A stretch of DNA of 34,436 nt from Opitutaceae bacterium (GTDB taxonomy: Bacteria > Verrucomicrobiota > Verrucomicrobiia > Opitutales > Opitutaceae). The translations under genes and the position numbers were made by a program. The stretch spans positions 1 to 34,436 of the forward strand of contig CANJNJ010000046.1 in assembly GCA_947474995.1 (NCBI GenBank). Reading direction: 5' to 3'. The notes under the pieces were generated by a model, which saw nothing but the letters and a program-made list of their open reading frames with translations, was not told where the DNA came from and made no database searches. Each line of letters opens with the position of its first letter. Positions within the stretch are counted from its first letter, which is position 1. Shown piece by piece: positions 7,067 through 34,436 of the stretch.

Positions 7067-8335
7067 TCAGCTCAGGTCCCGGATGCTGCCAAACTCCGGA
7101 TTAAACAGCCGCTGGTAGGTTCGGACAATCATTCCGTCGGTCAAACCAGCGAGCCAATCGCAGATTTGCCGGGCCTTGCCGGCCTGCGTCGCCTCGGCGT
7201 CAATCAGGCGGCCGACCCTCGGCGGCAGAATCTTGACCACCCGCGTGCCCTTTTCGACATAGTTGCGCCAGCACGAATCCCAGAGATCGAACAACACGCG
7301 TCGCGCCTTGTGCTCCATCTGCTGGAGTTGCGGGCTCTCAAAGATGATGTCGTTCGCCATCTTCTTATAAAATCCCGCTTCGCGCTCGGCATTCGGCGCC
7401 ACCACGAGGTCGAACCGATAACGATTCGTCAGCGCGGACATGAAATTTTCCCGCTCCCGCAGCCGGCACGACGTGATGAAGTGACCCACTTTCTGTGAAA
7501 ACGCGCTCTCGAGCCGATCCCCGCGAATCGCCACCAACAGCTGCTCGAGCCAGCGTTGCCGCTCGGCATCGATGGCCTCGCCCGCCGCCCACGACTCGAT
7601 TCGCTCGATGGTAAGAAAGCCCGCGGTGACGCCGTCGACGATGTCGTTGAGCGAATAGGCGGCATCGTCGGCCCAATCCATAATCTGGCACTCGACACTC
7701 TTGAAGGCATTCAGCGTTTCGTCCGCGTGAAGTTCCGCCGGAATTGCCGTGTCCCCCAGCACGAAGGCACGGTGCCGCTCCTGCGGATCATAGAGAAAAT
7801 GGTTGCTAGGCGCGCTGGGAAATTCACGGAACAGTTTCTTGTACTTCAACACGCCGTCCAGCAGGGCGCGCGTCGGCGCCATGCCGCGGACGCCGGATTC
7901 ATTCTGATAAATGGTTTCGGTCAGCAGATGGAGGGTTTGCGCGTTGCCTTCGAATCCGCCCCAGGGACCCATCAGCTCCTGCAGGGTCCTTTCGCCCGAG
8001 TGGCCGAAGGGCGGATGGCCTAGATCGTGCGCCAGGCAAACCGCCTCCACCAAATCGTCGTCGATGTGAAAATCGCCGCGCAACGGCGCGCCCCGCGAGC
8101 GCACATAGCTGGAAATCGAGCGACCGATCTGCGCCACCTCCATCGAATGCGTCAGCCGGGTACGGTAAAAATCATATTCGCCCGAGAGGAAAACCTGCGT
8201 CTTCGACTGCAACTTCCGAAATGCATGCGCGTGGATAATTCGATCGCGGTCCATTTGAAACGGCGTGCGATAGTCGCGCTTGCGCGCCCCGCCCAGCGGC
8301 TCCCAGTCGAACGCAGTGTAGAAGCGATTGGTCAT
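7067..8335 (-). CDS. dgt: Deoxyguanosinetriphosphate triphosphohydrolase-like HD protein
   Basis: A 422-residue HD-domain protein of the dGTPase family, which hydrolyses dNTPs to deoxynucleoside and triphosphate and so shapes nucleotide pools. The metal ligands are visible: H63 in RLTHSMEVAQIGR, H103-D104 in LAHDLGHPPFGHSGE, and a later Asp in MDWADDAAYSLND near residue 220. RDYRTPFQMDRDRI and HAFRKLQSKTQVF near the N-terminus are also family hallmarks. I start at ATG 8335 because similarity begins there. The open frame continues upstream to 8569, but that extension is Arg/Pro-rich, crosses a hairpin and looks noncoding. Its stop lies 69 bp before the DUF1592 start, so read-through into that pair is possible. 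Substrate preference cannot be read from sequence. Confidence 0.9.
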   Translation of the reverse strand: MTNRFYTAFDWEPLGGARKRDYRTPFQMDRDRIIHAHAFRKLQSKTQVFLSGEYDFYRTRLTHSMEVAQIGRSISSYVRSRGAPLRGDFHIDDDLVEAVCLAHDLGHPPFGHSGERTLQELMGPWGGFEGNAQTLHLLTETIYQNESGVRGMAPTRALLDGVLKYKKLFREFPSAPSNHFLYDPQERHRAFVLGDTAIPAELHADETLNAFKSVECQIMDWADDAAYSLNDIVDGVTAGFLTIERIESWAAGEAIDAERQRWLEQLLVAIRGDRLESAFSQKVGHFITSCRLRERENFMSALTNRYRFDLVVAPNAEREAGFYKKMANDIIFESPQLQQMEHKARRVLFDLWDSCWRNYVEKGTRVVKILPPRVGRLIDAEATQAGKARQICDWLAGLTDGMIVRTYQRLFNPEFGSIRDLS

Positions 8336-8444
8336 CGGGAATTGTTTCGACACGAACCGTTCATGCCATACGACGCAATCTTGCAATGCCCCCCGCGACC
8401 GTTCACCCCGCCCTCGGGCGCTGTGCGATTGCCGGGAACGATGT

Positions 8445-8464
8445 CGGCCACCGCGTGGTGGCCG
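8445..8464. terminator. Perfect 8-bp hairpin between the dGTPase gene and the upstream small gene
   Basis: CGGCCACC, loop GCGT, then GGTGGCCG form a GC-rich stem. On the minus strand it lies about 135 bp downstream of the small gene's stop (8600) and about 110 bp before the dGTPase ATG, with no T-run after it. It could end or slow minus-strand transcripts before the dGTPase gene. The rest of the 264-bp gap (8336-8599) holds nothing recognisable. Confidence 0.35.
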
Positions 8465-8599
8465 CGGGCGGAAAAATGACGGGATGCTCGGGGCCGGGCG
8501 GGGGTCTCGAGGAAGGTCAGGCTCCTGCGCTCGAGGCGGCACAACTGCTCGCCGATTAGCGGCGCACAACGCGGCACCCCGACCGGCGACGGCGGCAAT

Positions 8600-8965
8600 T
8601 TACCGAGCAGAAGGCGGCGCCGTGCCGATGGCCGGGGGGCGCGCCTTGCTGGGCAGCATTTCGCGGACGAGGCGTGTCACGCGCCCCGCGGAAACTCGCA
8701 GCCGCAATTGCCGCCGTGCAAATCCCTGGTTGCCCGGATGAAACTGAAATTCCGCCAGATCCGCGGGCAGATCGTCCGCGGTGGTGAGTTGCCCTACCGC
8801 CCGGATCAAATCATAGTCGGCCGCGAAATAATCTTGGGCTGAAAGCCGGAACAGCGGGACCAACGGCCAGACCCGGCGGTGAAGACAACGCCAGAACATC
8901 GCATCAACATAACGTTCCGGCGAGACGTCATAACGCTGGCAAAACAACTCTGAAAAATTTGGCAC
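8600..8965 (-). CDS. Small conserved-looking protein of unknown function
   Basis: I do not recognise this family. From GTG 8965 the protein has 121 residues, no signal peptide, no membrane helix, and many aromatic and charged residues (FSELFCQRYDVSPERYVDAMFWRCLHR, shortened here to FCQRYDVSPERYVDAMFW). The segments DYDLIRAVGQL and LAEFQFHPGNQGFARRQLRLR follow, and the basic tail suggests nucleic acid or membrane contact. Codon use in this part matches neighbouring genes. The frame stays open upstream to GTG 9037, through ATG 9019, but those codons (TTA, GTA, ACA, ACT) are AT-ending and overlap a promoter and inverted repeat, so I prefer 8965. It diverges from cdd. No function is proposed. Confidence 0.65.
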   Translation of the reverse strand: MPNFSELFCQRYDVSPERYVDAMFWRCLHRRVWPLVPLFRLSAQDYFAADYDLIRAVGQLTTADDLPADLAEFQFHPGNQGFARRQLRLRVSAGRVTRLVREMLPSKARPPAIGTAPPSAR

Positions 8966-8980
8966 GGCTGGACGAAGCGA

Positions 8981-8994
8981 CAGTACTGATACTG
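8981..8994. promoter_or_regulatory. Inverted repeat CAGTA-ctga-TACTG, operator-like
   Basis: This perfect 5+5 bp inverted repeat with a 4-bp spacer sits just downstream of a candidate -10 box (8997-9002, minus strand) and 15 bp before GTG 8965. It would cover the transcription start of the small unknown gene, which is a classic repressor position. The binding protein is not identifiable. Confidence 0.4.
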
Positions 8995-8996
8995 TG

Positions 8997-9025
8997 GTTA
9001 AAGTATTCACGCTGCCCATTGTGAA
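8997..9025 (-). promoter_or_regulatory. Candidate sigma-70-type promoter for the small unknown gene
   Basis: Read on the minus strand, TTCACA (9020-9025, five of six consensus bases) is followed after 17 bp by TTTAAC (8997-9002, four of six). The region is clearly more AT-rich than its surroundings. Transcription would begin near 8990, inside the inverted repeat. This placement supports a translation start at 8965 rather than 9019 or 9037. Confidence 0.45.
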
Positions 9026-9237
9026 CAACAGTGCCACTCCAAATTCCCCTCAGAATCTTTTGCCAACCAAATGACTTATCGGAACAAGAATACCCCGACG
9101 TTTGCCTGCCTTCCGACCGCGGTTGGCAGCGGCAGGCAAACCCCGCCCGGCCGCGCGCGTCACGGGTGCTGACTTGCACGCCACCGAAGTCTCCGACCTA
9201 CTGCTTGTTCGCCGCCGCGCGTCCCCCCTACCCTTCC

Positions 9238-9693
9238 ATGAAAGCCGACCCCGTCATTTCCCTCGCGACCCGGCAGCGCCTCGAGAAGGCGGCGCGTGCG
9301 GCCGCCGGCGCCTCGTATTCGCCCTACTCAAAATTTCCCGTCGGCGCCGCCGTGCTCGCCGATTCGGGCCGGATTTATTCGGGCTGCAACGTGGAAAACG
9401 CCTCGTACGGATTGTGCAATTGCGCCGAGCGGACCGCCATTTTCACCGCGACCGCCGCCGGGGAACGAAAAATCCAGGCCGTGGCGGTCTACACCCCGAC
9501 GGCGCGACCGACGGCGCCCTGCGGCGCTTGCCGTCAGGTCATTAACGAATTTGGCGCCCATGCCGCCGTAATCTGCGTGTGCAACTCGTCGCAGCGCATT
9601 GAGACCACCCTCCCCGCCCTGCTCGGTGAGGCCTTTGGGCCGCAGAATTTGCTCAACGCTTCGCGCCGCCCGGTGCGGCACAAAGTTCGCTGA
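9238..9693 (+). CDS. cdd: Cytidine deaminase
   Basis: A 151-residue zinc enzyme that deaminates cytidine and deoxycytidine to the uridine forms in pyrimidine salvage. The zinc and catalytic residues are visible: C62 and E64 in CNCAERTA, and C95 and C98 in PCGACRQ. GCNVENASYG forms the substrate loop. The length fits the short homotetrameric class rather than the longer E. coli-type dimer. I chose ATG 9238 because homology starts there; the frame extends upstream to 9031 through sequence that looks noncoding. Its last 41 bases overlap the tail of the broken hydrolase gene on the other strand. It diverges from the small unknown gene, with about 270 bp between the starts. Confidence 0.95.
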   Translation: MKADPVISLATRQRLEKAARAAAGASYSPYSKFPVGAAVLADSGRIYSGCNVENASYGLCNCAERTAIFTATAAGERKIQAVAVYTPTARPTAPCGACRQVINEFGAHAAVICVCNSSQRIETTLPALLGEAFGPQNLLNASRRPVRHKVR

Positions 9694-10086
9694 ATTCGCG
9701 CAGCGCCGCCCAATAGACCGGGCCCGCCACCTCCGGCAAATCGTTATGGCCGGCGCCCGGAACCCAAAGATGCCGCTTGGATCCACGCACCGCCGCCAGC
9801 AGCGCCGCGCCATGGGGAAACGAAATCACCGCGTCGGCCGTTCCGTGGATGACCAGAGTGTGAAATGCGCCGCCGGGTTGGGGAGATAGAGCATGGCCAA
9901 ATCCCCATCCCGGCCCCACGGAATCTTTCGAAGTCCCGCAACCGCCCGATACGATCCCAACCGGGGATGATAGAGGAGGCTACCCGCCAGAAACGGCGCC
10001 AGTAAGGCCAACCCCACATAGCCCGCCGCAAGGCCGGCGAGTGGCAACCGGAACCGTTTCCACCATGGGCCCGAATTCACACGCAC
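9653..10086 (-). pseudogene. Alpha/beta hydrolase remnant with internal deletion and frameshift
   Basis: Two parts of one serine hydrolase are joined out of frame. The N-terminal part (from ATG 10086) has a membrane anchor (residues 14-37, LAGLAAGYVGLALLAPFLAG) and reads to YLPNPAAHFTL, normally the first core strand. The C-terminal part (frame ending 9653) begins at TLVIHGTADAVIS and carries the catalytic Asp (GTAD) and His (GAGHNDLPE). The stretch between, which in this family holds the oxyanion loop and the GxSxxG nucleophile, is absent, roughly 150 residues by comparison with the family. The junction lies near 9853-9865 and shifts the frame by one, so the N-terminal frame stops soon afterwards. 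No active hydrolase can be made. The parent family resembles ABHD12/17-like membrane-anchored hydrolases. Confidence 0.8.
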
Positions 10087-10160
10087 TCAGCTAGTCGATC
10101 ACGAGCGGACAAGCGAGGACGCAACCCCGTTGAAGGCGCGCCGCCGCGGTCGGCACCAAT

Positions 10161-11498
10161 TCATGCGCCGGAAAAAAATTCCCGCACCGTGGCCGCCACC
10201 TGCGCCCGCCCTACTTCAAGTTCCGTACGCTGCCCCAAGTCCCGGATCTTCACGACGCCCTTGGCCAATTCATCCCCGCCATAGATCAGCGCGAGCTTCG
10301 CACCCGACTCCGCGGCCGCCTTGAATTGCTTGCCGAAGGCCAGTTCCTTCATCGGATATTCCACTCGAAATCCGGCCGCCCGCAGAGTGTGGATGTCGGC
10401 GAAAGCGGCGAGGCGCTCTGCCTCGCCCCCGATGACACAGTACACGTCCGGAACCTGCACAAATTTTGGCATGAGCCCGCGCTGTTCCAAGAGGAGTGCA
10501 AAGGTCATGTCGCCAATGGCAAAGCCCACCGCCGGCAACGCCGGTCCGCCAAGTTTTGCCACGAGATCATCATACCGGCCGCCACCGGCCAAGGCCCGCA
10601 GTTCGCCTTTCCGATCGAACGCCTCGAAGACAAACCCCGTGTAATAGGCGAGTCCGCGCACGACCCCGAGGTCCACCTCGACAAAACGCGCGAGCCCCAT
10701 CGCTTCGAGTCCGCCGAGCAACTTCTTCCACTCGGCCAGACGGGCAACGAGCTTTGGGCCCACACTGCCTTCCTCCCCAGCGGGCTGAATTCCCGCCAGC
10801 GCCTGTTCGAGTTCGGCCAGGCTCTTGACGCGAAGGAAGGCGAGGACCTTCTCTTTCAACCCGCCATCCAGCGCACCGAACTGTTCGCCGTAAACCTTGA
10901 AAGCCTCGTCGCCATATTTCTCGTGGCGATCGACCGCACCCAGCATGGCCCGAATGCGCGGCTCATCGAGGCCAAGCGCCTCAAGGTAAAAGAACCACAG
11001 GTTGCGATCACTCAGTCGCACATAAAAATCCTGCTCGGTCAGCCCAAACGCGCACAGGCACTGCACCAGCAACGCGATCAGTTCGATCTCCGCCTCGGGC
11101 CCGGGTTCGCCAAAGATGTCCGCGTTGAATTGGGAAAAGCACCGTCCCCGGCCTTTTTGCATCCGCTCGTAGCGGTAAAATTCCGCAATGCTAAACCACT
11201 TGATCGGCCGCTTCAGCGCACTGGCCTTGGCGCCGACGAGCCGGCATACCGTGGGCGTCATCTCCGGGCGAAGCGCAACCTCGCGGCCGCCTTTGTCGGT
11301 AAAACTAAACAGCTGGGCTTCGATTTCGTCGCCCGACTTTGCCTTGTAAAGATCCAGCGGCTCCAGCACCGGCGCATCGTACTCGGCAAAGCCGAAGGCG
11401 TTGGCCGTCTGGCGCCAAAGTCGGAACACATGATTCCGCCGCGCAAAATCTTCAGGATAGAATTCGCGAAATCCGGGCAGAGTCTGGAACGTGGCCAT
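10161..11498 (-). CDS. hisS: Histidine-tRNA ligase
   Basis: A 445-residue class II aminoacyl-tRNA synthetase that charges tRNA-His in the cytoplasm. Motif 2 is seen as FSIAEFYRYERMQKGRGR, preceded by LRPEMTPTVCRLVG. The histidine-specific segment appears as GLAYYTGFVFE, followed by GGGRYDDLVAKLGG (motif 3 region). The anticodon-binding domain occupies about the last 95 residues (LIYGGDELAKGVVKIRDLGQ). I chose ATG 11498 because MATFQTLPGFREFYPED matches the family N-terminus; the longer frame to 11618 begins with GTG and is not conserved-looking. It lies downstream of the HU-like gene on the same strand after 139 bp, and ends 74 bp before the hydrolase remnant. Confidence 0.96.
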   Translation of the reverse strand: MATFQTLPGFREFYPEDFARRNHVFRLWRQTANAFGFAEYDAPVLEPLDLYKAKSGDEIEAQLFSFTDKGGREVALRPEMTPTVCRLVGAKASALKRPIKWFSIAEFYRYERMQKGRGRCFSQFNADIFGEPGPEAEIELIALLVQCLCAFGLTEQDFYVRLSDRNLWFFYLEALGLDEPRIRAMLGAVDRHEKYGDEAFKVYGEQFGALDGGLKEKVLAFLRVKSLAELEQALAGIQPAGEEGSVGPKLVARLAEWKKLLGGLEAMGLARFVEVDLGVVRGLAYYTGFVFEAFDRKGELRALAGGGRYDDLVAKLGGPALPAVGFAIGDMTFALLLEQRGLMPKFVQVPDVYCVIGGEAERLAAFADIHTLRAAGFRVEYPMKELAFGKQFKAAAESGAKLALIYGGDELAKGVVKIRDLGQRTELEVGRAQVAATVREFFSGA

Positions 11499-11637
11499 GG
11501 GAGGGCGAATCGTTGCGAACCCGGTGGTCGCAGGGCGACTCAAAAAGGCGGCACAAGCCTCAGGCTGAATCGAACGCGAACCGCCCACCAGGTGCGACAA
11601 CCCCCGGGCACCCCGCACCCTACCTCACCACCACGCC

Positions 11638-11973
11638 TCAAACCGACGGTGGCGACGGTGGCGGTGAAAGCAATTTAGCCAGATCCAGCTTCTTCAGCTG
11701 CTGCTTGAGGATCTTGCCAGACTTGAATTTCACGACGGCGCGCTGTGGAATCACCACTTCTGCCTCTGGTTTGTTCGGGTTGCGTCCAATCCGCTGTTTG
11801 CGCACCTGGACTTCGAGCACACCAAAATTCCGCAATTCCACATTGCGGCCATTGGCCAATGCTTTCTGCACGATGTCCAAGGTCTGCTGCACCGTATCGA
11901 CTATCTGTTTCTGCGGAAACCCGGACTTCCGGTATATTTCCAACACGATTTCACGTTTGGTGAGATTCGACAT
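11638..11973 (-). CDS. HU/IHF-family DNA-binding protein
   Basis: A 111-residue nucleoid protein that binds and bends DNA as a dimer. The fold is recognisable from LTKREIVLEIYRKSGFPQK (helix 1), the dimer helix QTLDIVQKALANGR, NVELRNFGVLEVQVRKQRIGRNPN leading into the beta arm (FGVLEVQVRKQRIGRNP, with the conserved GRNP turn), and AVVKFKSGKILKQQL at the C-terminus. It is about 15-20 residues longer than E. coli HU, owing to a Pro/Ser-rich tail ending LSPPPSPPSV. The GRNP turn is shared by HU and IHF subunits, so the specific type is undecided. A good candidate promoter lies upstream in the AT-rich stretch facing ubiE. Confidence 0.92.
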   Translation of the reverse strand: MSNLTKREIVLEIYRKSGFPQKQIVDTVQQTLDIVQKALANGRNVELRNFGVLEVQVRKQRIGRNPNKPEAEVVIPQRAVVKFKSGKILKQQLKKLDLAKLLSPPPSPPSV

Positions 11974-12017
11974 GGGGGTTCCCTTTCTTAGTTTGTCCGT
12001 GGATTTTGAAGCACCTT

Positions 12018-12047
12018 AAATTATTTACATCCTTCTAATTGCGTCAA
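12018..12047 (-). promoter_or_regulatory. Candidate sigma-70 promoter of the HU-like gene
   Basis: On the minus strand, TTGACG (12042-12047) is followed after 18 bp by TAATTT (12018-12023) in the most AT-rich intergenic stretch of the window. It lies about 45 bp upstream of the ATG at 11973, which is preceded by AAAGGG, a plausible ribosome-binding site. The same 126-bp divergent gap must also hold the ubiE promoter, which I could not place with confidence. Confidence 0.5.
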
Positions 12048-12099
12048 CCCTTATGACTAGATTATCCAACACTCGTAACCGGGTATCGTCACTTTAAAA

Positions 12100-12801
12100 A
12101 TGCCCGACCCCGTCGCGGTAAATTCAATGTTCGCTCGTATCGCCAGCCGATACGACCTTGCCAACCGGCTCCTCAGCGGCGGCATGGATATTTGGTGGCG
12201 CTATCGTTTGGTTTCCGCCGTGCGCCAGGGCCGCCCGAATGCCGTCCTCGATTTGGCAACTGGAAGCGGCGACGTCGCCCTGGCGTTGAGCCGCCGCCTG
12301 CCGGCCAGCGTGCAAATCATCGGTATGGATTTCTGCCGGCCCATGTTGGTTGAAGCCGATCGGAAGAAAATCGCCGCCGGCCCCGGCGCCTATGCCAACG
12401 TCACTTTCAAGCCCGGCGATGCCCTCGATCTTCCGGCGGCGGATGCCGACTGCGACGCAGTGACCATTTCGTTCGGCCTGCGCAATTTCGCCGACCGCGG
12501 CCGCGGGCTGCGCGAGATCCACCGGGTGCTTCGACCGGGCGGACAGTTGTTCGTGCTCGAATTCTCGCCGCCCCAACGGTGGTTCCAGCCGATCTATTAT
12601 TTTTATCTGCGACACGTGCTGCCGCTCCTGGCGGGTTGGATCACCGGCGATCGCCACGCCTACGATTACCTCAACGACTCGATCGGTCGCTTCCCCACGC
12701 GAAAAGAAATTGCCGGCGAAATCTCCGCCGCGGGTTTTTCCTCGGTCACCCACCGGGGCATGACGTTTGGCATTGTCGCACTCCACCTCGCCACCAAGTA
12801 A
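12100..12801 (+). CDS. ubiE: Demethylmenaquinone/ubiquinone methyltransferase UbiE/MenG family
   Basis: A 233-residue SAM-dependent C-methyltransferase that carries out the last ring methylation in quinone synthesis. In this lineage the product is probably menaquinone, so menG is an equally valid name. The N-terminal signature is MFARIASRYDLANRLLSGGMD (in part FARIASRYDLANRLLS). SAM motif I is VLDLATGSGDVALAL (about 49-63). The second family signature, FGLRNFADRGRGLREIHRVL, is present, as are LFVLEFSPP and the C-terminal THRGMTFGIVALHLATK. Start ATG 12100 gives the usual length. The product fits the window's quinol-oxidising complex functionally, although the genes are 17 kb apart. Confidence 0.93.
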   Translation: MPDPVAVNSMFARIASRYDLANRLLSGGMDIWWRYRLVSAVRQGRPNAVLDLATGSGDVALALSRRLPASVQIIGMDFCRPMLVEADRKKIAAGPGAYANVTFKPGDALDLPAADADCDAVTISFGLRNFADRGRGLREIHRVLRPGGQLFVLEFSPPQRWFQPIYYFYLRHVLPLLAGWITGDRHAYDYLNDSIGRFPTRKEIAGEISAAGFSSVTHRGMTFGIVALHLATK

Positions 12802-29578: not shown

Positions 29579-30247
29579 TTACGGGATCTTCAGGAGCTCT
29601 TCGGCGGTCCACGGCTTGTGGTCGCCTTCCTTGGCACGGATTTCCGCGACTTTTTCGGTCGTAATCGCGCTGGCCTGGTTACCCCATTCTTGGCGCACGT
29701 AGGTCAAGACGGCGGCAACCTTGTCGTCGCTCCAATTGAAACCCGAGCCGGCCACGCGACCGAATGGTGGCATGGCAGAATTATAGGCGGCACCGTTGAC
29801 CGTAATCGGACCCTGCAGTCCGTGCAGCACGATGCGGATGACGCGCTCTGCGGGACCCGTGGCCCATTCCGAGGCAACCAACGGCGGGATCGCCCCCGGC
29901 TGACCCAGGCCCGTGGCCTGATGGCAGGTATTACAGGCAGCGTTGTTAAATAGTTTCTTGCCGACCACGACCGGGTCGACCGGCGCAGCCGCCACGGCCT
30001 CACCTTTGGTGCTCTTGAGGTTTTCGTCGTAAATATGCGGATCAAAGCGGCCCGCATAACGATTCATATAGGTGCCGGCGAAAAAAATCAGTCCGCTGAA
30101 GATAAACAGCAGATTGAGCGGCAGCAGCTTGTAGCGTGCTTTCTCGTCCGGCTGACTGCCGAGGATCTTTTCGTGCACGGCCAGCAAGCTTTCGTCGGTG
30201 ACCGCCGCCTGGTCGACTCGCGGATCGGAATTCGGGGGCGTGCTCAT
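29579..30247 (-). CDS. Membrane-anchored monohaem cytochrome c, CcoP-like
   Basis: A 222-residue protein. Residues 1-40 are cytoplasmic, one helix follows at about 41-60 (LLPLNLLFIFSGLIFFAGTY), and then a periplasmic linker and cytochrome c domain. The haem site is C105-C108-H109 (ACNTCHQATG). The axial ligand is M159 in YNSAMPPFG. The topology and position as last gene of a cbb3-like set suggest a CcoP counterpart, but true CcoP has two haem domains, whereas only one is present here. The ATG overlaps the CcoO-like stop by 4 bp (30244-30247). Its likely job is to carry electrons on the periplasmic face. The protein ends with a charged tail, EELLKIP. Confidence 0.88.
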   Translation of the reverse strand: MSTPPNSDPRVDQAAVTDESLLAVHEKILGSQPDEKARYKLLPLNLLFIFSGLIFFAGTYMNRYAGRFDPHIYDENLKSTKGEAVAAAPVDPVVVGKKLFNNAACNTCHQATGLGQPGAIPPLVASEWATGPAERVIRIVLHGLQGPITVNGAAYNSAMPPFGRVAGSGFNWSDDKVAAVLTYVRQEWGNQASAITTEKVAEIRAKEGDHKPWTAEELLKIP

Positions 30248-30942
30248 TTCTTACCCTCCTGCTTGGTCTCTTGGTGGGACGCAGCCGGAGTTCCGTGCGC
30301 GACCGCCTCGCCCTTGGCCGCAATGGGCGCCGGAGCCGGACGGGCTTCCGGATATTCGTACGTGTTGTTCAAGCTTCGGAGGTAGGCGACGAGCGTTTGG
30401 GCACGCTCGGAGGGTGCCACCTCGAAACCAGCGGCCGGCGCAAGATTTCCGATCAGGCGAAGCGCTTGGGCGGAGGCCTCACCCACGATCGGCCGCGTTT
30501 CAAAAAGGAACTGGTAACGCGGGTGCACCGGGGTCCCGACGTAGAGCAGCTTCAGAAGATCTTCCGCGTCGGGTGCGGAAGGTTTTCGGCCGGCCAAATT
30601 CGTCAAATCCGGTCCCAAACGCGATCCACCCAGCTGCGGACGCGCCTGATGGATGTAATCGCGGGCCACGCTCTGGCGATCACCCCAGCCACGCGCCTGA
30701 TCAGAGCCAAAGCCAGGGCGACGCACCTGCTGGGTGTGACAGGAAGCACAGCCCAAGTCGGCATAAACCAACTGACCGCGGGCGGCGATTCCGGCCGGAC
30801 GCTCGGGGAATGACTTGCCCTCGGTGTCATCGAAATAAGGAACCAATCCGCCCAACTGGGCATGAGAGGCTAGGACGATGCCAGCCCACGAAATCGTGAC
30901 GGCGGCAAAGAGACCGAGGAAAAAGACCGGGCCGTTTTTCAT
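30244..30942 (-). CDS. CcoO-like membrane cytochrome c with altered axial ligand
   Basis: A 232-residue protein homologous to cbb3 oxidase subunit II (CcoO). One N-terminal helix (about 5-25, VFFLGLFAAVTISWAGIVL) is followed by a periplasmic domain with haem site C65-C68-H69 in YADLGCASCHTQQVRRPG. RLGPDLTNLAGR and YQFLFETRPI are also family segments. In CcoO the second haem ligand is the Met of a motif like SxMPxYxFL. Here that place reads PVHPRYQFLF, with H140 where Met is expected, and the only Met in the whole protein is the initiator. The C-terminus is a Pro/Ala/Lys tail. ATG 30942 is the family start and overlaps the CcoN-like stop by 4 bp. Confidence 0.88.
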   Translation of the reverse strand: MKNGPVFFLGLFAAVTISWAGIVLASHAQLGGLVPYFDDTEGKSFPERPAGIAARGQLVYADLGCASCHTQQVRRPGFGSDQARGWGDRQSVARDYIHQARPQLGGSRLGPDLTNLAGRKPSAPDAEDLLKLLYVGTPVHPRYQFLFETRPIVGEASAQALRLIGNLAPAAGFEVAPSERAQTLVAYLRSLNNTYEYPEARPAPAPIAAKGEAVAHGTPAASHQETKQEGKK

Positions 30943-32366
30943 GATACGGGCGCCTCCAGTGCGGTCGGCTGGCGGAAAAGATTCTCCGTGGACGCCTGAA
31001 TAGGGCTGCACACACACGCACTCTGGCAGAAATTAACGAGGAAAAGGATATTCGCTCCGAGGATTACCAAGTTGGCAGCGGAACCGAGCAGGAACCAAAT
31101 GCGCAGGTGACCCAAGATGTCAGCCAAGGGAATCTTGGAATCCAATAATTCACCGGATTGAATCCAGCCGCCGACGAAAAGGGAAATCAGCAGGACGGTG
31201 ACGCCCGAGGTCACGAGCACGCGATGGCCCACCGTAAAAAGAGCCGAAGCCCAGGGCCGACCGGTTAGACGCGGCACCATGTAGTAGATGGCGCCAAAGA
31301 ACATCATCGAAACACCACCGTAAATTGCCATTTGCTCCTGGGCGTCGGAGATCAAGGTGAACTGCGTCCGCAGCGCGATGCCGCGGAAGGACGTAATCCC
31401 ATCCAAAACGCCACCAAGCACGTATGCCGCCAAGCCGTAGCGAATGAATTTGATCCCGGTGCCTTCGGCGCCGCATGCCACGCGAAGATTCAGACCGACG
31501 ATGAGATAGTGGAAGAGCAGCAAGGAGCACGACACGACTGCCATCGTCGCAATCCAAGCCGGTACGGGACCCCCGACGAGATGCCGGCCACCGGTCCAGG
31601 CGCCGACAAAAATCAGCGTCCAGAAGGAAAGCGGCGCAAAGTCATAACTCGGCAGCACCCGCCCGGAAACCTTGGGAACCACATAATAAGCGCCCGCCAG
31701 AGCGAGGGGAGCCAGCCAGCACGCCCAGACACCCTGTGTGAACCAACCGGAGGCCAAAGCCTGCAACGTGCCCCGAACCGGGGCCCAAAGGAGTACCACT
31801 TGCGCCGCGGAGGACAACCACGGGAAAAGGAAAAGCGCGGCGACGGCATACCATTGCGAAGCGTAAGTCTGATCCGTCCGACGCCCGGACCAAGCCAGCA
31901 CGCCCGAAACGGCGATGGCACCATAAGCGACCACCAGCAACGGCTGCACATAACGCGGAAGCTGGAAGAAGGCGAATGAGGTCATGTCGCCGGTGGCGAT
32001 GCCAACCAAGCCGACGGCCACACCCAGATTCCAAAAGATCGTTCCAATGACGGCCCAATTGAGGGCCCGCAGCGGAGCACCGCCCAGACGCGCCAGCACC
32101 CAGAGCGCAATCGCCAATCCGGCATTGGCCGCCCAGCCGTAGATGAACGCAGTCTCACGCAGGGCCGCTGCTCGGCCGTGGGTCAGCACCGGGCAGTCGG
32201 CTTGAAAGCCCGGCGAATGCATCTGAATCGAAGTAATCAGCGCCAGCACGCCGCTCACGACCAACCAAACCAGAGCGGCGCCCAGCAACAGGAGCAAGGG
32301 ACGGCGCGCACCGGAATCGATGGCGGTGACTTCGGCCGAAGCGGCGTTTGTCGGGGCGTTGGTCAT
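30939..32366 (-). CDS. CcoN-like oxidase subunit I homologue without metal ligands
   Basis: A 475-residue membrane protein with about 12 helices that aligns along its length with CcoN of cbb3 oxidases; the anchors AGAYYVVPKVSGR, SFWTLIFVGAWTGG and FFGAIYYMVPRLTGR are unmistakable. Aligned by eye to Pseudomonas stutzeri CcoN, the low-spin haem ligand H60 is R70. The CuB ligand H207 is Q211, and the second CuB ligand H257 is R261, while H258 is kept as H262. The cross-linked tyrosine is G255. The haem ligands H347 and H349 are Q343 and Q345 (SDAQEQMAIYG). It cannot bind the usual haems or CuB and should not reduce oxygen. A Cys cluster (C447, C451, C453) lies at the C-terminus. ATG 32366 is chosen over a longer, non-conserved frame to 32486. 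Confidence 0.87.
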   Translation of the reverse strand: MTNAPTNAASAEVTAIDSGARRPLLLLLGAALVWLVVSGVLALITSIQMHSPGFQADCPVLTHGRAAALRETAFIYGWAANAGLAIALWVLARLGGAPLRALNWAVIGTIFWNLGVAVGLVGIATGDMTSFAFFQLPRYVQPLLVVAYGAIAVSGVLAWSGRRTDQTYASQWYAVAALFLFPWLSSAAQVVLLWAPVRGTLQALASGWFTQGVWACWLAPLALAGAYYVVPKVSGRVLPSYDFAPLSFWTLIFVGAWTGGRHLVGGPVPAWIATMAVVSCSLLLFHYLIVGLNLRVACGAEGTGIKFIRYGLAAYVLGGVLDGITSFRGIALRTQFTLISDAQEQMAIYGGVSMMFFGAIYYMVPRLTGRPWASALFTVGHRVLVTSGVTVLLISLFVGGWIQSGELLDSKIPLADILGHLRIWFLLGSAANLVILGANILFLVNFCQSACVCSPIQASTENLFRQPTALEAPVS

Positions 32367-32401: not shown

Positions 32402-32731
32402 TTACTTGGCCCCGTATTGTTGGGCGGTGAGCTCGATCGCCCGTTCGATTGGCAGCTGCACCACACCCTTCTTTTGGTCCACCCAAGCGTAGGACACAGC
32501 CTGTTTGGCCTGCTTTTCACGCAGCGCACCGAGCGCGGCCTTGCGCGAAGCAGGAGTCGCTTTCCATTCGAGTTCCTTGGGGAGATTTTCCGCCGCCGCA
32601 TTCTGGGGCGCGGCCACCGTCGGCACGTAAAAATAGCGGACGACGAACAGGAAACCGGCGAAGAGCGCCAGAATGAACAAGGTCGTGATAAGCGAAACCG
32701 GTCGGGCGCCGCTGGCGGATGAATCACTCAT
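32402..32731 (-). CDS. Small single-helix membrane protein of alternative complex III/oxidase loci
   Basis: A 109-residue protein: a short cytoplasmic start, one helix at about 13-34 (SLITTLFILALFAGFLFVV), an acidic/Ala linker, and a C-terminal motif YAWVDQKKGVVQLPIERAIEL. I recall similar 'GWVDxxxGVVxIPIxRAMEL' endings in small proteins beside cytochrome oxidase and alternative complex III genes, but no function is assigned to my knowledge. Its start overlaps the end of actF by 8 bp (32724-32731), and the CcoN-like gene starts 35 bp after its stop, so it belongs to the operon. It could be an accessory subunit or an assembly factor. Confidence 0.8.
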   Translation of the reverse strand: MSDSSASGARPVSLITTLFILALFAGFLFVVRYFYVPTVAAPQNAAAENLPKELEWKATPASRKAALGALREKQAKQAVSYAWVDQKKGVVQLPIERAIELTAQQYGAK

Positions 32732-34004
32732 GGTGGGTCAGGCTTTCCTGGATCCGGGGGTCGCGGATCGGGATGAGTTTGGCAGTCGAAACGCTCTTCA
32801 GGTAAGACCAAACACAGACGCCGCCGACACCGACAGCAGCAGTGATGGACCAAAGCAGGCCGGCCGACAGGAAGGGCAGCGGATTGCCGTGCACGTCCCG
32901 CAAAGCCGGCAAGACGTTGTAGCAGATGTCCAAGAAGATTATCGCGAGAATCCAAAGCGCGATGCGCCGGATAATATGATGGGTGACCTTGAACCGGTAA
33001 GACAGGAGCAGCAGGAAGGGCACGAAGAAGTGGCCGAACAAGATGATGAAGATACCGACGTATTTCCACTGGTTCGGCGTCCCGTCCGCATTCAATTCAC
33101 GGACGTTATACCAGAAGGTCTCCTCCGGTACGTTGGCGTTCCAAATCAGGAAATATTGGGAAAACGTGACGTAGGCCCAGAAAACCGTGAACGCCAGCAT
33201 GAGCTGACCAATACTGTGGAAGTGATTCGTGTTGAGGATGCCCTTGTAATCACCGCGCTGATAAAGCCAGACCATGATCAGCACTCCGATGGAAAGTGCA
33301 CCCCGCATGCAATTCGCGAAGAACCACACGCCATACATCGTAGAGAACCAGTGGTACTCCAGACTCTTCATCCAATAGATCGCGGCGAACGTCAGAGACA
33401 GTGCCGTGAGCGGCAGCCCGAATGCCGCCGTCTTCCGATTCATGAAAGTCCACTTTGTATCACCGTCGGAATCCTGGGCGACCGAAGCGTTGCGGAGCCG
33501 GGCCGACAGCCAGATCCAGATAGTGAAGAAGGCAAAGGTCATCCCCAAAAACATCGGCAGGCTGAGAAAGCTCTCTTTCTTCAGGTAGAGCGGATCCGAC
33601 CCAACCGTGTGGCCGCCATGAATCTCATGTTCCAAGTTCATCCACGGCCAGATGGCGTCGTGCGAACCGAGCAACGACACGATCACCAGCGGGGAGAAAA
33701 GGAGTGCGAGCCACTTAAAGGAATGGAGCCAAAGTTCCCACTGGCGACGCACGACCGCCGACCACGAGGCGTCGACGATGTGATGAATCAGCACCAACAA
33801 AAGCATGCCGATCGCGATGGCGGTCCAGAACGCGACCCCGACGAGCCAGGAAAGCGCGACGACGCGCTTGTCGTCGGTAACGAACAACCCGAGCAGAGTG
33901 AGCGCAATGCCGGCCATGCCGATCATGAGGGCACGACCCGCCGCAGAGGCAGGAGCAGAACCGGCCGGATGGGCCGTTGAAGCAGTAGCGGCGTGGGTAC
34001 TCAT
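32724..34004 (-). CDS. actF: Alternative complex III quinol-binding membrane subunit ActF
   Basis: A 426-residue integral membrane protein of the NrfD-like ActC/ActF family, one of two quinol-interacting membrane subunits of alternative complex III, which passes electrons from menaquinol to cytochrome c. Ten helices can be counted, from ALMIGMAGIALTLLGLFV (about 25-42) to PFLSAGLLWSITAAVGVGG. Family segments include AFWTAIAIGMLLLVLIHHIV, MNLEHEIHGGHTVGSDPLY and AYVTFSQYFLIWNANVPEET. The last one, with the following WYNVREL, is a strong ActF feature. ATG 34004 overlaps the actE stop by 4 bp. actA to actD would be expected beyond the right edge. Confidence 0.92.
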   Translation of the reverse strand: MSTHAATASTAHPAGSAPASAAGRALMIGMAGIALTLLGLFVTDDKRVVALSWLVGVAFWTAIAIGMLLLVLIHHIVDASWSAVVRRQWELWLHSFKWLALLFSPLVIVSLLGSHDAIWPWMNLEHEIHGGHTVGSDPLYLKKESFLSLPMFLGMTFAFFTIWIWLSARLRNASVAQDSDGDTKWTFMNRKTAAFGLPLTALSLTFAAIYWMKSLEYHWFSTMYGVWFFANCMRGALSIGVLIMVWLYQRGDYKGILNTNHFHSIGQLMLAFTVFWAYVTFSQYFLIWNANVPEETFWYNVRELNADGTPNQWKYVGIFIILFGHFFVPFLLLLSYRFKVTHHIIRRIALWILAIIFLDICYNVLPALRDVHGNPLPFLSAGLLWSITAAVGVGGVCVWSYLKSVSTAKLIPIRDPRIQESLTHHE

Positions 34005-34436
34005 GGGAGGCCGAGCGTTCGACGGGCGACTGAGTCAGTGACATCAGCGGCGGTGCCAGATTGGGCACGCTGAAGGGCGCGCACGTAGGCGATTACGGCC
34101 CAACGATCCTCGGGCGTGAGTTTATCAGCGTAAGGCAACATGATCTTGGTCGGCGAACCGTTCGTGATCGTGTTGAAAATATCCCCGTCGGCCATGGTGC
34201 GCAGCCGATCGTCGTGGTAAGACGGCGTGGTGCCCATGCCGTACTGTTTGGTGATCCCATTGCCATCCCCCACCGTCCCGTGACAGGGAGCGCAATAAAC
34301 CGTGTAGCGGTCGCGACCGCGTTCGATGAAAGCGCGGTTCACGGTCACGCCAGCGGGAAAGCCCTTGATCGCAGCACCCGCGGCATCCTTGCCGCGGTAG
34401 AGCGGATCATTTTCCCGCAACATGCCGCGCATGACG
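34001..34436 (-). CDS. actE: Alternative complex III monohaem cytochrome c ActE, C-terminal part
   Basis: The frame runs in from the right edge, so the N-terminus (signal or lipobox) is missing; about 144 residues are visible. It is a class I cytochrome c with haem site CAPCH in YTVYCAPCHGTVGDGNG and the likely axial Met in PTKIMLPYADKL, followed by the closing helix EDRWAVIAYVRALQRAQ. The upstream segment NDPLYRGKDAAG and then VTVNRAFIERGRDRY is typical of ActE. Its stop overlaps the actF start by 4 bp. It should take electrons from the ActB/ActA part of the complex and pass them on. Confidence 0.9.
   Translation of the reverse strand, partial: VMRGMLRENDPLYRGKDAAGAAIKGFPAGVTVNRAFIERGRDRYTVYCAPCHGTVGDGNGITKQYGMGTTPSYHDDRLRTMADGDIFNTITNGSPTKIMLPYADKLTPEDRWAVIAYVRALQRAQSGTAADVTDSVARRTLGLP

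Follow-up and report, generated by a model that had tools for sequence, protein, structure and literature searches.

In the accessible part of a review, the pairing of ACIII (alternative complex III) with a C-type oxidase is described only for verrucomicrobial methanotrophs and Opitutaceae (PMC8498564). The Kam1 genome paper associates high oxygen affinity with the cbb3 encoded beside ACIII (PMC6688271), and the available portions of three papers count a cbb3-type oxidase for the methanotrophs (PMC6688271, PMC8498564, PMC10205796). In Methylacidiphilum caldifontis IT6, nos genes are reported within the ACIII cluster (PMC11102522, accessible in part). The window, as we call the whole stretch of Opitutaceae DNA analysed (34,436 nucleotides), carries a locus of this type, in which the genes run in the order ACIII, small TM protein, CcoN-like, CcoO-like and CcoP-like:

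34001 to 34435, minus strand: ActE, a monohaem cytochrome c, truncated 5′ where the contig ends
32724 to 34004, minus strand: ActF of ACIII, matching ActF of 6f0k (E 7.4e-59)
32402 to 32731, minus strand: small protein with one hydrophobic stretch, between ActF and CcoN
30939 to 32366, minus strand: CcoN-like protein of 475 aa that keeps one metal-ligand His out of six
30244 to 30942, minus strand: CcoO-like monohaem cytochrome c, with CASCH at residues 65-69
29579 to 30247, minus strand: CcoP-like monohaem cytochrome c, hydrophobic over a stretch at the N terminus

The first-pass annotation had located the CcoN-like gene correctly at 30939-32366; the coding strand is minus (32366-30939), the plus-strand reading being interrupted by stops. 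The stop codon of this gene overlaps the start of the CcoO-like gene (ATGA at 30942-30939). No Rfam match was obtained in the window at gathering thresholds. In the orthologous locus L037, ActD matched its Pfam profile at 216 bits, and ActC, an NrfD protein, matches chain C of 6f0k, a solved ACIII (E 1.3e-192). The ActC gene of the window's genome lies at the end of another contig (C99), which fits an operon broken in the assembly. As a separate observation, ActF is split over two frames in L039 (8216-9565) and also in L113, possibly through a frameshift or an assembly error.

The CcoN-like protein matched COX1 with 100 bits (cut-off 34.8), its sole Pfam match, and scored 78.9 bits against NCBIfam TIGR00780 (ccoN), below the cut-off of 583.15; one intact ACIII-linked relative scored 224.6 bits and one methanotroph copy 23.4 bits against the same profile. 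The AlphaFold2 model, computed with 52 sequences (pLDDT 88.7, pTM 0.89), aligned with Pseudomonas stutzeri CcoN (3mk7) at Z 49.8 and 2.0 Å across 439 residues. Five CcoN entries headed its structure matches (Z 47-50), followed by NO reductases (Z 43 and 41). The CcoN fold claimed at first pass is thereby confirmed: the protein is, in the predicted model, a 12-helix CcoN fold, and the model informs on fold, not on metal content.

In 3mk7, we take H60 to be an axial ligand of haem b, H207, H257 and H258 to be the CuB ligands, Y251 to be the active-site tyrosine, H345 to be the haem b3 ligand and H347 to be a haem b ligand. In the alignment to 3mk7, the columns H60/H207/Y251/H257/H258/H345/H347 hold R70/Q211/G255/R261/H262/Q343/Q345 in the window protein, whose codons, together with one for a further replaced His, lie as follows:

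32157 to 32159, minus strand: R70, aligned with H60
31734 to 31736, minus strand: Q211, aligned with H207
31602 to 31604, minus strand: G255, aligned with Y251
31581 to 31586, minus strand: R261 and H262, aligned with H257 and H258; H262 is the sole remaining ligand
31362 to 31364, minus strand: Q335, aligned with H337
31332 to 31340, minus strand: Q343-E-Q345, with Q343 and Q345 aligned with H345 and H347

The alignment bears out the earlier reading that five of the six His are replaced (R70, Q211, R261, Q343, Q345), that H262 alone is left, and that the tyrosine has become glycine (G255 at the Y251 column). The window protein has six His residues in all (50, 63, 262, 286, 381 and 420). A takeover of the ligand role by other His was looked for and ruled out, as H262 is the only His within the ligand columns. 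A sequencing error or a single odd genome was also ruled out, since close relatives lack the ligands as well (L003 and L072, with 67% and 73% identity to the window protein) and the frame is under purifying selection. Because the ligands are lost, and from what is established about haem-copper oxidases, the window protein almost certainly has no capacity to reduce O2, and it presumably holds neither haem nor copper.

A CcoN-like gene was called ACIII-linked when ActF lay upstream, separated from it by no more than one further matched gene, and CcoO and CcoP lay downstream. The window has this arrangement and is one of 187 linked loci in Verrucomicrobiota, or 160 after removal of identical cores. 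All seven ligand residues are kept in 34 of the 160 linked CcoN (hereafter intact) and not in the other 126 (lost), under uneven sampling in which the 187 linked loci came from an Opitutaceae-seeded search (80, 12 intact), Opitutaceae (58, 9 intact), an order-level list (39, 17 intact) and other orders (10, none intact; 11 class-level loci with L196). Within Opitutaceae, 141 of 150 genomes had a match at E ≤0.001, some of them to other oxidases only. The lost copies span several families and orders of the class. The lost form occurs in named strains, for example Cephaloticoccus primus CAG34 and C. capnophilus CV41, and the intact form in records without a MAG mark, for example IMCC26134 and Opitutaceae bacterium EW11. 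Homologues with the full ligand set at the same locus, named at first pass as evidence against the loss, thus exist in 34 of 160 cases; the loss in the window stands, and the intact relatives suggest that the window protein descends from an intact oxidase subunit. The order ActF-(small)-CcoN-CcoO-CcoP is common to intact and lost loci, and the small protein was located by tblastn in 132 of the 160 linked loci (25/34 intact, 107/126 lost).

At the H337 column, the thinned sets show Q for 72% of the 47 lost sequences and H for 27 of the 28 intact ones. The column of E323, which we take to be the active-centre Glu of cbb3, holds Leu in the window protein and Glu in none of the 34 intact ACIII-linked relatives. 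Since Glu323 is absent throughout and the one relative tested scored so far below the ccoN cut-off, the intact relatives are, to judge from sequence, unusual C-family enzymes and not ordinary cbb3. In the accessible part of one paper, the active-centre Glu is termed mandatory for authentic cbb3 (PMC5492636).

Among 22 CcoN outside the linkage rule, 21 were intact, with linkage hard to judge for two of these because little sequence lies upstream (595 bases in L062, 1017 in L210); the exception, L196, is lost and has nos genes upstream. L050 and L062 combine an intact CcoN with monohaem CcoO and CcoP and show no Act genes in their stretches, and L050 has a 703-aa ORF downstream with a CSSC motif, P-type-ATPase-like by eye. 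Contig C175 of the window's genome carries an 864-aa ORF (L221, 1343-3934, minus strand) with a partial COX1 match (E 5.8e-10) and the motifs WALGHQ and SAHHL, possibly an unusual haem-copper protein.

The cytochrome genes downstream have largely kept their haem-binding motifs. CXXCH was present in the best CcoO frame at 124 of 126 lost loci, the exceptions being L148, where a second CcoO frame carries it, and L197; it was present in 124 of the 124 CcoP frames found at lost loci. The distal Met of CcoO is found in 33/33 intact loci, and at lost loci another residue stands there in 34/125 and a gap in 4/125. In the window CcoO-like protein, CXXCH is retained and the distal haem-ligand Met has given way to H140 (codon 30525-30523); other lost lineages have Arg, Cys, Lys or Ser at this position. 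Because of this drift, an electron wire through CcoO is not assured. For CcoP, a regular expression for the distal Met failed in 5/31 intact loci also and was set aside. In L185-L187 and L190, a frame matching CcoO/CcoP has two CXXCH, and an extra one-motif cytochrome lies downstream.

Our favoured account, which we consider probable, if by no means secure, is that the window protein is a former cbb3-type subunit I that now serves, without haem or copper, as a scaffold keeping c-type cytochromes attached to ACIII; the role is inferred from the operon, the selection on the gene and the recurrent losses. A C-family subunit I in the ACIII operon would have been stripped of the sites for haem b, haem b3 and CuB, O2 reduction going with them, and the CcoN-like body would have been retained as a 12-helix membrane scaffold for the CcoO-like and CcoP-like cytochromes on ACIII. 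We infer that the CcoN-like protein assembles with ACIII, and that electrons would pass from menaquinol to ACIII, perhaps via the CcoO and CcoP haems, and on to a separate live oxidase. In the window's genome this oxidase would be the caa3 or the CcoNO cbb3, whose genes lie away from this locus; for methanotrophs and certain other relatives it would be the aa3 of the same operon. The metal-free scaffold for cytochrome subunits proposed at first pass is therefore kept as the best reading, as an argument from gene order and conservation.

Genes for other oxidases are present. At least one COX1 match beyond the ACIII-linked one was present in each of 57 scanned genomes, lost and intact, the extra match consisting only of contig-end pieces in G014 and G236. 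Cytochrome bd was also found in 14 of 32 genomes, with no match in the window's genome, where a CcoNO with all seven residues (L059) was found. Full-length PF00115 matches lie a few kb from the lost CcoN in G417, G425 and G428, and aa3 genes stand 3′ of CcoP in the same operon in L194-L198. With these gene neighbourhoods, and with ACIII-aa3/caa3 supercomplexes known (PMC5928083, accessible in part), the dead CcoN with CcoO and CcoP might dock ACIII to aa3/caa3 in one supercomplex, the c-haems acting as the wire. This arrangement would be compatible with a scaffold, and at loci where the aa3 genes adjoin the module such a bridge is plausible. We nevertheless regard it as unlikely: the caa3 operon of the window's genome is on another contig and has a CtaC with a CXXCH of its own (its CtaD is above the TIGR02891 cut-off and has the motifs HFHY, GHPEVY and HHMF), and the distal ligand of CcoO drifts. 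A further idea, in which the operon-linked aa3 lacks a CuA subunit II and the dead cbb3 module substitutes for it, was ruled out by nearby PF00116, found no more than about 1 kb past the analysed locus stretch in G309, G319, G336, G398, G330, G417, G425 and G428.

The emptied site could instead have acquired new chemistry, with the cluster of Q211, R261, H262, Q343 and Q345 conducting protons or other ions, or binding quinol or lipid, in coupling with ACIII. The near fixation of Q211, G255 and R261 within the window's clade is in keeping with this, as is the recurrence of Arg, found at column 261 in 58/126 lost copies and at column 262 in 38/126. However, the replacement residues vary by clade (QGRHQQ in the last six columns, ASTSRRW, YGGARHF, FFSNYHY, SESSHFV), and the cluster is absent from other lost clades of the same operon, including SESSHFV, FFSNYHY and AYAAKFM. 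The earlier expectation that the Gln/Arg substitutions are conserved in an ACIII-linked clade thus holds for the window's clade and not for the other clades of the locus. A single base change turns a His codon into one for Gln, Arg, Tyr, Asn or Leu, so the frequency of these replacements needs no new function. We found no direct support for the proton- or quinol-handling subunit suggested at first pass and consider a new chemistry distinctly unlikely. Both haem b His are kept in L147, L192 and L193, which are classed as lost, and these copies may still bind one haem.

The scaffold reading draws in part on repeated loss, and we compared the ligand rows with trees of the partner proteins and of CcoN. 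A quick tree of ActF+CcoO+CcoP from 58 Opitutaceae loci gave three changes. A midpoint-rooted tree of ActC+ActD+ActF (87 loci, LG+F+G4) contained 22 maximal lost clades, with 15 changes by parsimony; the figure of 22 is an upper one, as several deep branches are poorly supported and short loci lack ActC/ActD. The CcoN tree, built with the ligand columns left out, had 6 maximal lost clades and 6 changes. Three lost/intact sister pairs (L147/L044, L172/L153 and L169/L152) had support of 99.9-100/100 on the ACIII tree, and the nearest CcoN of L147, L172 and L169 was in each case that of the intact sister. On the CcoN tree, L147, L169, L172 and L142/L171 are nested within the intact clade. A single ancestral loss is incompatible with the nested losses on both trees and with the sister pairs. 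Ligands would therefore have been lost repeatedly among ACIII-linked CcoN, 6 times on the CcoN tree and up to 22 times on the ACIII tree. L147 and L044 share 96% identity in ACIII proteins and 85% in CcoN; the ligand row of L147, HHSARHH, still has the haem b3 residue, the two for haem b and a single CuB His, so that the tyrosine and the CuB pair were the first to be lost in this copy.

These trees also bear on another view, in which the CcoN linked to ACIII had been inactive from the outset and each intact copy stems from replacement by the gene of a stand-alone oxidase. In its favour, a single clade of the CcoN tree (SH-aLRT 91.6, bootstrap 77) takes in 56 lost rows and stands apart from the intact ones, in conflict with the ACIII tree, and in L151 and L063 the lost CcoN is closest to other lost CcoN although the ACIII pairs with that of an intact locus. 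Fast-evolving rows attract each other, however, and the grouping of the 56 rows may reflect such attraction or old gene exchange. The lost copies nested in the intact clade, the three whose nearest CcoN is the intact sister's, and the branching of stand-alone copies outside linked ones (L043 excepted) partly refute this view, which we consider very improbable.

The first-pass claim of a maintained protein rather than decay is supported by the conserved operon and by the state of the lost copies. Every one of the 126 lost ORFs counted is full length (454 to at least 540 aa), and pairwise dN/dS (NG86) was 0.055-0.224 in 16 lost-lost CcoN pairs, a seventeenth being saturated; the only unsaturated intact CcoN pair gave 0.074. 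Values for lost CcoN resembled those of CcoO and mostly exceeded those of ActF, and the pair with the latest loss, L147/L044, reached 0.456, so constraint on lost CcoN is relaxed. Median root-to-tip distance in CcoN was 1.81 for 62 lost versus 0.79 for 25 intact copies, about 2.3 times faster, while ACIII showed no speed-up (1.36 lost versus 1.42 intact). Intact copies share 155 invariant positions, and in the thinned lost set 34 of them are still conserved at 90% or above; positions that vanish include the ligands, neighbours in the same helices and others around the haem sites, such as H337. Mean retention was 0.67 in loops, 0.61 at helix ends and 0.56 in helix cores, a weak test. Slow pseudogenisation, with function gone and the frame open only temporarily in a gene headed for loss, would agree with the faster evolution after loss, the 0.456 of L147/L044 and the single stop codons inside three genome-list matches (G094, G208, G230), but is largely refuted by full-length lost copies across several families and orders, dN/dS well below 1 in older clades and replacement residues nearly fixed within the window's clade, and we consider it the least credible account.

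The ligand loss extends to the methanotrophs. Four class-level genomes of 2.2-2.5 Mb show the ligand row SESSHFV and encode three or four members each of the PmoA/AmoA family, and their PmoA/AmoA genes and locus features would tie them to the named methanotroph strains. The methanotroph operon extends into CtaD-CtaE-CtaF and CtaC. In L196, a methanotroph locus, nos-like genes (7533-12255) lie upstream of small-CcoN-CcoO-CcoP-CtaD, which recalls the arrangement reported for M. caldifontis IT6; by eye they comprise a NosZ-like C-terminus, NosD, NosL and an ABC ATPase. In general terms, the ACIII operon of Verrucomicrobiae would contain a pseudo-oxidase module, from which O2 chemistry was removed independently several to many times while the body and the cytochromes were kept as part of a quinol-oxidising complex, in some lineages as a bridge to the same-operon aa3; the methanotroph 'high-affinity cbb3 oxidase' would then be no oxidase at this locus. 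We see the case for this generalisation as evenly balanced.

In the literature searched we found no report of such ligand loss; subscription papers, including the 2010-2012 ACIII papers of Refojo and colleagues, were not covered, and absence from print is not established. Repeated loss of ligands with the body retained would show that subunit I can play a structural part distinct from catalysis, and the series from intact to lost copies (for example L044/L147) offers a route to asking what that role is. For annotation, a CcoN-like gene beside ACIII in Verrucomicrobiota cannot be counted as a terminal oxidase without a ligand check.

Compared with P. stutzeri CcoN (3mk7), the window locus matches in the 12-helix fold and in the CcoO/CcoP-like partners downstream, whereas the window protein lacks five of the six His, the active-site tyrosine, H337 and E323. 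Unlike in a cbb3 locus, the CcoO-like protein lacks the distal Met and the operon belongs to ACIII. The stand-alone CcoN of L050, L053, L174 and L203, the tree outgroups nearest to linked CcoN, have Gln in the E323 column and, unlike the window protein, keep all seven ligand residues. The ACIII-caa3/aa3 supercomplexes of Rhodothermus marinus and Flavobacterium johnsoniae, so far as described in the accessible parts of two papers (PMC5928083, PMC8361435), likewise join ACIII and an oxidase; their partner is a live A-type oxidase, whereas the gene by ActF in the window encodes a dead C-type subunit. The ACIII-adjacent 'cbb3' reported for verrucomicrobial methanotrophs and Opitutaceae (PMC8498564, PMC6688271, PMC11102522) likewise has ACIII directly beside C-type oxidase genes; the available portions of these papers treat this 'cbb3' as a cbb3-type cytochrome c oxidase, whereas the four pmoA-bearing genomes analysed here have the row SESSHFV.
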